From Dictyobacter arantiisoli (GTDB lineage Bacteria; Chloroflexota; Ktedonobacteria; Ktedonobacterales; Ktedonobacteraceae): a DNA stretch of 56,809 nucleotides. Under the pieces are notes generated by a model. It did no database searches. It was not told where the DNA came from and saw only the letters and a program-made list of their open reading frames with translations. Below are positions 1-3,597 of the stretch, piece by piece. Position numbers and translations under genes: made by a program. The stretch's first letter is position 1; every line of letters starts with the position of its first letter. The DNA lies in NCBI RefSeq assembly GCF_008326305.1, contig NZ_BIXY01000042.1, forward strand, positions 1 to 56,809, written 5' to 3'.

Positions 1-121
1 AAACATGGAACGGAGTGTGTCAATGACAATTGACTGCAGTATTGAGGAGCCGTGTGAGGCGACAAGTCTCACGCACGGTTTTGAAGCCGAGCGGAGAGGG
101 CGACCTCTTCGCTTAGGCAGC
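1..121 (+). mobile_element. 3' end of a group II intron (domains V and VI)
   Basis: Positions 47-80 fold as a 34-nt group II intron domain V. It starts GAGCCG with the AGC catalytic triad, the lower stem CCGTG pairs with CACGG, a two-base CG bulge lies on the 3' side, and the upper stem TGAG pairs with CTCA under a small GACAA loop. Positions 86-118 fold as domain VI: GCC/GGC, GAGCG/CGCTT and AGAGG/CCTCT around a GCGA tetraloop. A single bulged A at 115 is placed as the lariat branch point. The intron should end a few bases later, roughly 119-125; the exact splice site cannot be set from one copy. The intron body and any reverse transcriptase lie upstream of the window. The downstream sequence resumes as iscB coding sequence in the same strand, so the intron sits inside that gene. 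Confidence 0.85.
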
Positions 122-565
122 GCACTTTTTGAGCGACTCAAGGCGACGGGCTTGCCGGTCGAGTGTGGGTCGGGTGGTTTGACGAAATACAACCGAACCA
201 TCAGAGAACTGCCCAAAGCGCACTGGATCGATGCCGCCTGCGTGGCGAAAAGTACTCCTGATGCCTTAGACATCAAGAAGGTGAAACCCCTCTTGATCAA
301 GGCGACAGGACACGGCAGACGCAAGATGTGTGTGACTGATACGTACGGGTTCCCAAAACAGCACAAAGAGCGCAAGGGGTCGTATTTGGGATACCGAACG
401 GGGGATGTGGTCAAGGCCATCACTCCCAAAGGAACCTTTCAGGGACGGATTGCGATTCGTCATCGCCCTTCATTTCGTGTAGGGAAAGTTGATATTCACC
501 CGAAATATATGCATCGTCTCCACAGGAGAGACGGGTATGAATACAGCAGAGAAAGAAGCGCGTGA
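122..565 (+). CDS. iscB: IscB RNA-guided nuclease, C-terminal exon only (partial)
   Basis: About 147 residues matching the last part of IscB, the IS200/IS605-associated ancestor-like relative of Cas9. The segment begins ALFERLKATGLPVE, a typical IscB stretch, followed by a G-G-TKYNRT motif and PKAHWIDAACV, which carries the RuvC-III aspartate region. The C-terminal domain contains GYRTGDVVKAI and ends HPKYMHRLHRRDGYEY, as in many IscB proteins. The bridge helix, HNH and RuvC-I/II parts must lie upstream, beyond the intron and outside the window. An open frame runs back into intron domains V/VI but those residues are not IscB-like. If the intron splices, a whole protein could be made; if it is immobile, this is a broken gene. 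No omega RNA is visible because that region is also upstream. Confidence 0.8.
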   Translation, partial: ALFERLKATGLPVECGSGGLTKYNRTIRELPKAHWIDAACVAKSTPDALDIKKVKPLLIKATGHGRRKMCVTDTYGFPKQHKERKGSYLGYRTGDVVKAITPKGTFQGRIAIRHRPSFRVGKVDIHPKYMHRLHRRDGYEYSRERSA

Positions 566-700: not shown

Positions 701-2407
701 TTAGAGCGTGACCATTTTGACATTAAAGATATCGCCAGCCTGATTGATCTCGTCAATGGCCCAACCGGGAATGGGATTATCGACAGAGATAACCATCAGG
801 GCGGATTCGCTGGCGCGCTGGGCGTCGTATGAGCGGGCTTTGCGTACGCTGGGTCCGACATCCATATGGCGGATATTCACCCCGGCTTTGCCCAGGACGG
901 TGCCAACGATACCAATCATGCCTGGCTGGTCGATATTGCGGCAGAAGAGGATGGGACCTTCTGGCACAAACTCGGTCCAGTAAGGACCAACCTGGACGAT
1001 CCGTGGCTCATCATGCATCACGGTACCGCTCAGCACGCTGATCTGATCCTCACTGGCAGCCTGATCCTCTCCCTCTGTAACGACGCGCAGGGTGACCTGA
1101 TTAGCAAATTCGGCGGGTGTAGTTGATTTGCGCTCGACAATCTCGATGCCCCATTCTTTCGCCAGCACCTGGGCATTGATCATATTGACATGAGCTTCGG
1201 ATACCGATTCCAGCAATCCTTTGACCAGAGCCGCTTGCAGGGGACGCAGGTCATAGCTGGCGATCTCACCGCTATAGGTCAACTCGATTTTATGCAGAGG
1301 CTCGGGTTGCAACTGGGTATAGATGCGACCCAATTTCTCAACCAGGGTCATATAGGGTTGCAAGATCTTGAGTGTCTCCGGCAGGATCAAAGGCGCATTG
1401 ACAGCAGCTCGTGGGAAGCCGCCTCGAATGACAGAGACAACCTGGTCCGCGACATCGGTGGCGACGCCAACCTGTGCCTCTTCGGTTGAGGCACCCAGAT
1501 GCGGTGTTGCAATGATCCGCTCATGGCTGACCAGGCGTTGCAATAACGCGTTATCGCGAATGGGTTCCTGACTAAATACATCCAGCGCGGCCCCTGCGAT
1601 ATGGCCCTCATCGAGGGCTTTCAGCAGAGCCTCTTCCTCGATCAAGCCACCGCGTGCGCAGTTGATTAAGCGTGCACCAGGCTTCATGATGCTCAGCTCA
1701 TGCTCACCGATCAGGCCACGTGTCCCGTTAGGACCACTGGTCAGAGAGGTATGCAGGGTCACGAAATCCGCTTTACGTAGCACATCTTCCAGGCTCATCA
1801 TCTCGACATTGGATTTGCGTGCTTGCTCGGGCGAGACAAAAGGATCAAACGCAATCGTCTGCATCTCCAGTCCCTGTGCACGTTTCGCGACATTCATGCC
1901 GACCTTCCCAAGGCCAATCACGCCCAATACCTTATTGCGTACCTCAATACCCAGGAAGCGGCTCTTCTCCCACTTATGGGCTTTCATGCTGGCATCGGCG
2001 GCTGGCACGTGGCGGGCCAGCGACATCAGCATCGCAATCGTATGTTCGGCGGCGGCGACAATATTGCCGGTAGGGGAATTCACCACAATAATACCCTGCC
2101 GTGTCGCGGCCCCGGTATCAATGTTATCAACGCCCACGCCTGCGCGCCCCACAATCTTCAGATTGGTCGCCTCAGCCAATACATCGGCGGTCACCTGGGT
2201 TTCGCTGCGCACAATTAAAGCCTGATACGCGCCAATAATCGCCTTCAGCTGTTCAGGTTTCAGTCCTGGACGCTCATCAATCTGAGCATCGGGCAATTGG
2301 GCGCGCAACAGATCAACGCCTTCATGCGCAATGCGATCAGTAATCAAAATCTTCACGGCCTCGACCGCTGGATCAACGTGCACTACCTCATCACGTACTT
2401 CTGCCAT
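701..2407 (-). CDS. serA: D-3-phosphoglycerate dehydrogenase (SerA)
   Basis: First enzyme of the phosphorylated serine pathway: oxidises 3-phosphoglycerate to 3-phosphohydroxypyruvate with NAD+ in the cytosol. About 568 residues, the long SerA form. The substrate domain is followed by a Rossmann domain with GLGKVGMNVAKR near residue 160, then ARGGLIEEEALL and TPHLGASTEEAQ (catalytic His region). After an intervening domain, a C-terminal ACT domain is recognisable as QPGMIGIVGTVLGKAGVNI, usually the serine feedback site. The start is placed at the ATG at 2407 because AGGAGAG lies 7 bases ahead of it. An upstream ATG at 2434 overlaps the preceding stop (TAATG) but has no good ribosome site. The gene directly follows an aminotransferase that could supply the next pathway step. 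Confidence 0.93.
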   Translation of the reverse strand: MAEVRDEVVHVDPAVEAVKILITDRIAHEGVDLLRAQLPDAQIDERPGLKPEQLKAIIGAYQALIVRSETQVTADVLAEATNLKIVGRAGVGVDNIDTGAATRQGIIVVNSPTGNIVAAAEHTIAMLMSLARHVPAADASMKAHKWEKSRFLGIEVRNKVLGVIGLGKVGMNVAKRAQGLEMQTIAFDPFVSPEQARKSNVEMMSLEDVLRKADFVTLHTSLTSGPNGTRGLIGEHELSIMKPGARLINCARGGLIEEEALLKALDEGHIAGAALDVFSQEPIRDNALLQRLVSHERIIATPHLGASTEEAQVGVATDVADQVVSVIRGGFPRAAVNAPLILPETLKILQPYMTLVEKLGRIYTQLQPEPLHKIELTYSGEIASYDLRPLQAALVKGLLESVSEAHVNMINAQVLAKEWGIEIVERKSTTPAEFANQVTLRVVTEGEDQAASEDQISVLSGTVMHDEPRIVQVGPYWTEFVPEGPILFCRNIDQPGMIGIVGTVLGKAGVNIRHMDVGPSVRKARSYDAQRASESALMVISVDNPIPGWAIDEINQAGDIFNVKMVTL

Positions 2408-2433
2408 AGGATTCTCTCCTCTAGTTGTATGCA

Positions 2434-3597
2434 TTATGCCTGGTAACCAAGCTCGTGAAGGCGTGTTTCAACGGCATCCATGGCCTGTTCCAGATCAGTT
2501 TGGGTGAAGTATCCCAGATGGCCCACACGGAACATTTTGCCCTTCATGTGATCCTGTCCATCAGCGAGAACGATTTGGTCTTCTTCACGTAGTTTCTTTA
2601 AGATGGCTTTGGTTTCGATACCTGCTGGCGTCCTGATCGCGGTAACCGTATTTGACGCATAGCGTGGATCGGTTGAGAGCAATTTTAATCCCATTGCCTG
2701 GGCGCGGCCACGAACATATTCTCCAGCCTTCACGTGGCGAGCAAAGATCTCCTCACGACCTTCGGCAATCATCATCTCCAGGGCCTCATCCAGGGCATAG
2801 AAGAGGGAGACGGGCGGAGTTGTGGGATGTTGCCAGGATGCCTCAAGGTTCTTACGGGTCGAGGACCAATCCCAGTAGAAACGTGGTAGTTTCGAGGTTT
2901 TATGGGCTTCCCAGGCGCGTTCGCTGGCGGCGATCATCATAATACCTGGAGGAATCATCCATCCTTTTTGTGAGCCGGTGAAGACCACGTCCAGATCCCA
3001 GGGGTCCATTTCCAGGGGCAGGCTGCTCAGCGAACTCACGGCATCCACCACGATCAGGGCATCGGGATTGGCGCGGCGCACAATCTCGGCTAGCGTTTTG
3101 ACATCGTTGGTCACACCAGTTGATGTCTCGTTATGGGTGATTAAGACTCCGCGATAATCTGAGATCTCTTTCAGGCGAGACTCAACCACATTCGGGTCTG
3201 CCGCCTCGCCCCAGGCGAATTCGATCTTTGTCACATTTAAGCCAAAAGCAGTGGCAATTTTCGCCAGGCGAGTGCCGAAGTTGCCGATGATGATCGCGAC
3301 AACATGGTCGCCGGGTGAAAAGACGTTGACCAGAGCACATTCCTGGCCACCGGTACCAGATGCGGGATAGGTGAGGACGGGGGATGTAGTCTGGAAAAAG
3401 TATTGGAGACGTGGTGTGACTCTCTTCATGATCGCGGAGAACTCAGGACCACGGTGATTGATCAGTGGGGCTGCCTGTGCGTCCAGGACTTGTTGAGGGA
3501 CAGGGGTTGGACCTGGTACACGTAAGTTTTGCCTGGGGATAGGGACACGTGCCTCTACCTGAGGCAGAGGAATGGCCTTTTGTGCTTGAGTCGTCAT
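2434..3597 (-). CDS. Class V aminotransferase (phosphoserine / serine-pyruvate type)
   Basis: PLP-dependent aminotransferase of the alanine-glyoxylate/serine-pyruvate family, 387 residues, the family's usual size. Seen: the N-terminal PGPTPVP substrate loop, INHRGPEF, the glycine-rich cofactor site ASGTGGQECAL, the aspartate region VVDAVSSLSSLPLEMD, and the Schiff-base lysine in GSQKGWMIPPG. The stop is 27 bases upstream of the chosen serA start on the same strand, so the two are co-transcribed. In organisms without a classical SerC, such enzymes convert phosphohydroxypyruvate to phosphoserine; the link to serA makes that the likeliest role here, by inference. A glyoxylate or serine-pyruvate aminotransferase role is the alternative. 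A GGAG lies 11 bases ahead of the ATG. Confidence 0.88.
   Translation of the reverse strand: MTTQAQKAIPLPQVEARVPIPRQNLRVPGPTPVPQQVLDAQAAPLINHRGPEFSAIMKRVTPRLQYFFQTTSPVLTYPASGTGGQECALVNVFSPGDHVVAIIIGNFGTRLAKIATAFGLNVTKIEFAWGEAADPNVVESRLKEISDYRGVLITHNETSTGVTNDVKTLAEIVRRANPDALIVVDAVSSLSSLPLEMDPWDLDVVFTGSQKGWMIPPGIMMIAASERAWEAHKTSKLPRFYWDWSSTRKNLEASWQHPTTPPVSLFYALDEALEMMIAEGREEIFARHVKAGEYVRGRAQAMGLKLLSTDPRYASNTVTAIRTPAGIETKAILKKLREEDQIVLADGQDHMKGKMFRVGHLGYFTQTDLEQAMDAVETRLHELGYQA

Follow-up and report, generated by a model that had tools for sequence, protein, structure and literature searches.

A mobile group II intron splits iscB genes at a conserved site in Ktedonobacteraceae, with splicing as the probable route to intact IscB

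IscB is a Cas9-like RNA-guided nuclease, and in a group of soil bacteria, the Ktedonobacteraceae, we found its gene split by a group II intron. The window, i.e., the whole stretch of DNA that was analyzed, is contig C42 of Dictyobacter arantiisoli (56,809 bases, from a 7.2-Mb draft genome in 256 contigs); it starts at the contig edge, inside the intron, and runs into the 3' part of iscB. The first-pass annotation had placed a group II intron within an iscB gene here, and this view was borne out: the same intron, designated intron A, lies at an identical iscB site in eight copies over three species, with three copies in the genome of D. arantiisoli. We consider it probable (roughly 0.85) that a retrohoming intron splits iscB at this conserved site, that splicing restores IscB, and that the conserved, multi-copy IscB systems of Ktedonobacteraceae thus offer group II introns a target on which they land repeatedly. 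In the plainest reading the intron is a nested parasite: it homes to a gene family that is conserved and present in multiple copies, and by splicing it spares this family.

According to this account, an intron whose protein combines reverse transcriptase (RT), maturase and HNH domains would recognize the conserved iscB site via EBS1/IBS1 and EBS2/IBS2 pairing and would reverse-splice, sense to the gene, at the W273/A274 codon boundary (counted from VFVID, the aligned start). An unspliced transcript would yield a fragment of ~280 residues with RRXRR/RuvC and HNH and without RuvC-III and the C-terminal part. Splicing would join the exons in frame to give full-length IscB, with little harm to the host element. 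Other group II introns lie inside the omega-RNAs of Ktedonobacteria bacterium brp13 and Ktedonosporobacter rubrisoli, where splicing would rebuild the guide.

The features of the window are listed in Table 1. The boundary 121|122 was placed by comparison with uninterrupted iscB copies, the alignment that the first-pass annotation had called for. Upstream of it, the translation of the first bases aligns with the end of the RT-maturase-HNH protein of the brp13 intron (..KHEEECINDN, stop). Downstream, exon 2 matches positions 272-313 of the 314-position profile NF040563 (E 9e-11), so the iscB coding sequence does begin mid-protein, as annotated; this exon alone scores below the curated cut-off of the profile, whereas the exon 1 pieces described below exceed 175 bits. 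A Pfam search of the iscB 3' exon stretch gave no match. The motif HWIDAA, which we take to be RuvC-III-like, is confined to exon 2.

Table 1. Features at the intron-iscB junction of the window
Feature	Position	Strand	Basis
Intron-encoded protein tail (KHGTECVNDN, stop)	1..33	+	read directly; aligns with brp13 protein end
Group II intron domain V	46..82	+	Rfam, fold, covariation
Group II intron domain VI, bulged A115	86..118	+	fold, covariation
Group II intron A 3' end, 3' splice site after 121	1..121	+	uninterrupted iscB sets boundary
iscB 3' exon, 147 codons + stop (563-565), starts A L F E R L	122..565	+	NF040563, alignment, translation
HWIDAA, presumed RuvC-III-like motif	221..238	+	position from exon 2 translation

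Both intron domains that had been named in the first-pass annotation were confirmed. The whole window gave no match to Rfam at gathering thresholds. In a relaxed search of 700 bases, RF04357 matched at 44-85 (46.6 bits vs a gathering threshold of 53, E 2.5e-9) and RF00029 at 45-142 (38.8 bits vs 40, E 4.8e-6); these domain V matches are sub-threshold but strong for a search of this size. The fold of 44-121 has an energy of -43.8 kcal/mol (z -5.5), and 0 of 200 shuffled sequences folded as well. Among 11 related introns the pairs of domains V and VI are kept in 98.4% of cells, a value that falls to at most 48% when the partner strand is slid, and both sides have changed in 13 of the 29 pairs; the covariation score was reached by 0 of 500 shuffles. 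The bulged A115 in the domain VI fold, six bases before the intron 3' end, is the presumed branch point. Downstream of iscB, a near-perfect long hairpin (619-687) precedes a serA-like gene (701-2434, minus strand). It attracts many chance microRNA matches in Rfam and is probably a terminator.

The missing halves of the intron and of the gene were found elsewhere in the same genome. Six iscB pieces were detected with NF040563, three long ones reaching profile position 276-277 and three short ones beginning at 272, besides five weaker matches confined to positions 183-281. The same 120 bases follow each long piece and the same 121 bases precede each short piece, bases 1-121 of the window being 100% identical over 121 nt on contigs C155 and C94. 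Thus, intron A interrupts every one of the three iscB genes in this genome, always at the same site, and the 5' exon whose presence upstream of the intron had been in question exists in three copies. Each 5' exon (L010, L011 and L012) has an intact HEARO RNA upstream, above the gathering threshold, and there is a fourth, sub-threshold HEARO whose contig has no match to iscB. Exon 1 of L010 contains RRXRR (E 8.6e-72) and HNH (E 2.8e-12), and the reading frames are intact in all six exon pieces. All six intron ends reach contig ends, and individual 5' and 3' exons cannot be paired. A search for group II RTs in this genome gave six matches; the interior of intron A, sought with the brp13 intron protein, is not in the assembly, and this protein is at most 38% identical to those of the RT-bearing contigs. 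A remnant of a brp13-type intron protein was detected on contig C62 (36 residues, 69% identity); the window contains only the last 10 codons of the intron A protein.

The complete intron was found in relatives. We searched 251 genomes with the 121-base intron end and obtained matches at E <= 0.001 in 14 of them, with a close form (at least 92% identity over nearly the whole length) in three: the genome of D. arantiisoli, brp13 and Ktedonobacter robiniae SOSP1-30. In brp13 (AP024096.1), intron A is 2,409 nt long and occurs in three identical copies, all within iscB at the same codon boundary (W|A); its frame of 579 residues (stop to stop) is intact and has RVT_N, RVT_1, GIIM and HNH domains. 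K. robiniae has two copies in iscB and a third in an IS256-type transposase gene, and one of the iscB copies (C8) has a frameshifted exon 1 and an IS3-type insert in the intron. These genomes also bear on whether the junction could be an assembly artefact, with a repeat misjoined to iscB at a contig edge. Such an error would fit a window that begins in the intron and six intron ends that all run into contig ends, but both the complete brp13 chromosome and K. robiniae contain these junctions within uninterrupted sequence, and we give this explanation practically no weight.

Uninterrupted iscB copies of the same species read TGG|GCA or TTT|GCC at the junction, and exact removal of the intron leaves complete proteins, of 425, 421 and 421 residues in the three brp13 genes and of 426 residues in K. 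robiniae. Since removal restores the frame and exon 2 alone supplies RuvC-III, production of full-length IscB should require splicing, in line with the first-pass suggestion that nuclease production may depend on it. We infer that the intron is spliced in the cell and that IscB would be active afterwards. The other first-pass suggestion, that the intron may shelter the genome from IscB, is speculative. The variable EBS1 fits the end of the 5' exon (GAAGCG with CGCTTT, GCGTAA with TTACGC, and CCAACG with CGGTGG, the latter at 5 of 6 positions), and visual inspection gave short fits between EBS2 and IBS2 (GCTA or ATGT at -12 to -9). Similar EBS1 fits were observed in K. rubrisoli and in three further loci (L080-L082); the fit is poor in L084a, and L088, L089 and L091 lie outside this judgement. 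Rfam domain I models gave no match to intron A in the five loci in which they were sought (L074-L078); EBS1 and EBS2 segments are present.

The ends of the iscB-lineage intron are CUGCG...AGC and depart from GUGYG...AY, whereas related introns start with GUGCG and end with AAC or AAU, and the copy in the IS256-type gene has GUGCG...AUC. GUGYG...AY ends are usual but have exceptions (PMC4424553), and we do not treat them as defining a group II intron. The first and penultimate bases are G/A in relatives, C/G in the iscB copies and G/U in the IS256-type copy, and possibly form one covarying contact (L076, 6687-9095; L078; L079, 3960-9131). In the iscB lineage the tail downstream of the branch A is shorter as well.

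A second type of split was found in the guide RNA. Two brp13 loci, 4376k and 6562k, contain a different group II intron upstream of exon 1, so that each carries both introns, and in a third locus, 2123k, the same upstream intron is present and iscB is intact. The protein of this second intron is 36% identical to that of intron A. The intron matches RF02012, starts with GUGCGACGUG, ends with UACCCGAC, is 2,415 or 2,416 nt long and is located at GAUU|AAACAG in the HEARO RNA, within the conserved motif UU|AAACAG. HEARO was detected at the gathering threshold in 12 of 17 loci scanned. The five loci without it are the three brp13 loci with split omega-RNA (one of them covered only in part), K. rubrisoli and the IS256 locus, which has no iscB. 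A laxer whole-genome search recovered weak matches to 5' halves only (62.2, 60.9, 38.2 and 58.5 bits). When the exons are joined, 20-22 of 25 intron-spanning omega-RNA pairs are kept, compared with 19-22 in uninterrupted copies. EBS1 AAUCGUU fits the omega-RNA 5' exon ends at 6-7 of 7 positions, another segment tying with it in one locus. We also searched the 251 genomes with 141 bases spanning the junction of intron and omega-RNA. Only brp13 had full-length matches, at 3 places; in 12 others the match was limited to one part, either the intron (up to base 44-86) or the omega-RNA (base 79 onward), and the two parts thus occur apart. At about 20 places brp13 also has HEARO-like RNAs that score 61-81 bits, nine of which share a score of 70 bits, and none has a listed iscB match next to it; they are perhaps mobile omega-RNA elements without a nuclease.

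Including the W|A iscB site and the brp13 omega-RNA site, the insertion sites number eight in seven genomes of Ktedonobacteraceae, and at each of them the intron is in sense orientation. K. rubrisoli independently has a 2,379-nt intron in its omega-RNA at GGAGC|UCUCGCG and a separate 2,389-nt intron in an IscB-type ORF that is complete when spliced; both joins align with a second copy in the same genome. Genome G001 has a 2,418-nt intron at EY|LLEKW (spliced ORF of 421 aa) and genome G003 one of about 2,488 nt that interrupts the HNH motif (433 aa); the G003 boundary (L135) is tentative, with two possible placements, of which the chosen one ends in AC and keeps the frame, its 5' end not being GUGYG. 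In Ktedonobacter sp. SOSP1-85 (L233, 2439-3301), an 863-nt intron without a protein frame lies at LE|KWG between intact exons; it has a possible HNH remnant. K. robiniae C8 has, besides the ORF intron, an extra intron between the omega-RNA and the start codon. The joined exons give a complete IscB in 3 of 3 cases in brp13, 1 of 2 in K. robiniae, and in G001, G003, K. rubrisoli and SOSP1-85.

These loci help to weigh two further explanations. It is conceivable that the insertions simply inactivate IscB, such that the introns are mobile without useful splicing and the split loci are dying elements. The unusual ends of the iscB-lineage intron would agree with this, as would the clearly broken K. 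robiniae locus and the truncated or frameshifted intron-less iscB copies that also occur in G001, K. racemifer and SOSP1-85. We regard it as unlikely, because exon frames are intact in 6 of 6 pieces in D. arantiisoli and in 8 of 9 split ORFs reconstructed elsewhere, all eight sites are sense-oriented, and intact exons flank even the ORF-less intron of SOSP1-85; in addition, the intron with C at position 1 has multiplied, and reverse splicing requires an active ribozyme. The identical intron copies are young, so intact exons are no proof of selection after insertion. The other explanation is a split IscB assembled from two unspliced products, with exon 1 giving the N-terminal part and a frame read through the intron end giving the C-terminal part. 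Frame 2-565 of the window is indeed open from the end of the intron protein region across both domain V and domain VI and on into exon 2, as are the matching frames in every copy seen (brp13, K. robiniae and the IS256-type copy, L079). The open intron stretch is short, though, has the same letters in all copies and may be due to chance; the other split sites need no such frame, and the split omega-RNA would be left unexplained. We find this explanation very improbable.

Intron-bearing iscB copies do not form a clade. The intron label requires at least 6 changes on the iscB tree, of which well-supported branches force 3, and shuffled labels need as many; as far as this tree indicates, the label is not clustered and a single origin is not supported. 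In brp13, loci 4376k and 6562k (L075 and L074) share 5,318 nt without a difference, a stretch that takes in exon 1, all of the iscB intron and the greater part of the upstream intron and that ends exactly at the iscB intron's 3' edge, whereas exon 2 differs from the third base on. A conversion tract that lies upstream and stops at the intron 3' edge is as predicted by retrohoming with upstream co-conversion, a process known from yeast mitochondrial introns. The brp13 genome has 11 iscB genes at E <= 1e-20; the ORF is split in 3 and the omega-RNA in 3, with four loci affected. Its group II RT matches number 42, and among the 25 listed, 6 lie within 3 kb of an iscB gene, compared with a mean of 0.25 and never more than 4 in 20,000 trials of random placement. 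As the six copies derive from few events, this shows concentration and not independent choice. When named loci were ranked by intron-protein sequence, 6 of the best 80 were in iscB-type genes (three in brp13, two in K. robiniae and one in K. rubrisoli), and many of the other 74 were cyanobacterial. We also considered IscB-assisted homing of the introns, using a 16-nt guide length. The 16 nt upstream of 15 omega-RNAs matched introns A and B and iscB at no more than 12-13 of 16 positions, which is the chance level (77 of 200 random 16-mers reached 12 matches), and such homing was rejected for these targets.

The host systems resemble known IscB/omega-RNA systems in their RRXRR and HNH domains and in a HEARO RNA just upstream of the ORF, and their sequences match IscB proteins of solved structure, 7UTN and 7XHT among them; unlike those systems, the ORF is discontinuous here, and in some loci so is the omega-RNA. 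A conflict between TnpB guide and intron is known in IStrons. IStrons, which are group I introns joined to an IS element with a TnpB-type gene, likewise combine a self-splicing intron with an element encoding an RNA-guided nuclease, but there the intron sits at the element's own end and the whole element is spliced out (PMC4227781), whereas here an independent group II retroelement lies inside the nuclease ORF or the guide RNA. Group II introns of mobile bacterial type are well known within other mobile elements (PMC4424553), and the K. racemifer genome paper counts 34 RT-maturase-HNH genes (PMC3236041). In common with such introns, those described here have an RT-maturase-HNH protein as well as domains V and VI; they pair with their exons, occur many times in a genome and reside in other mobile DNA (PMC4424553 and PMC3236041). 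They differ in that the host is an RNA-guided nuclease gene, that the guide RNA itself is the host in four loci of two species, and that in one lineage position 1 is C and the last two bases are GC. No group II intron in IscB or HEARO was reported in the open-licence literature searched, judged by titles and the beginnings of abstracts, though papers on ISC transposons (Kapitonov) or IscB (Altae-Tran 2021) may mention them; nor was one reported in the available parts of PMC9581776, PMC4227781, PMC3236041, PMC8393795, PMC4424553 and PMC8987985. The novelty rests on the host, an RNA-guided nuclease together with its guide RNA, and on the two-intron loci.

More tentatively, splicing might be a gate on the RNA-guided nuclease, guide and nuclease each being assembled by a ribozyme, with nuclease activity throttled and the introns tolerated; we see this as possible but rather doubtful. 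If it were true, brp13 and K. rubrisoli would have the first known nuclease guide RNA joined from two exons by a group II intron, and two different ribozymes would be needed in brp13. The ribozyme of a retroelement and an RNA-guided nuclease, both of them RNA-based machines, meet here in one locus, and the split guide RNAs are natural ones with exact junctions. Whether splicing switches IscB activity, and how mobile elements tame each other, can be tested in these loci, and in the conversion tract nature has recorded how a bacterial group II intron with an HNH domain spreads between paralogues.

Several additional loci were inspected and not counted. Introns near iscB in K. racemifer (L142 and L143) lie outside intact omega-RNAs, one iscB copy of K. 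rubrisoli (L137) has a frameshift, and one of K. robiniae (C3) has a deletion. The broken iscB copies L234-L238 have no group II intron at the break (L239 was outside the Rfam scan), and G010, G011 and K. racemifer showed no such split by the pattern of iscB matches, with some but not all of their broken copies opened. In K. racemifer and brp13 (L142, L150 and L152), several group II introns occur in tandem within a few kb, and one of these sets is located directly upstream of an intact omega-RNA and iscB.
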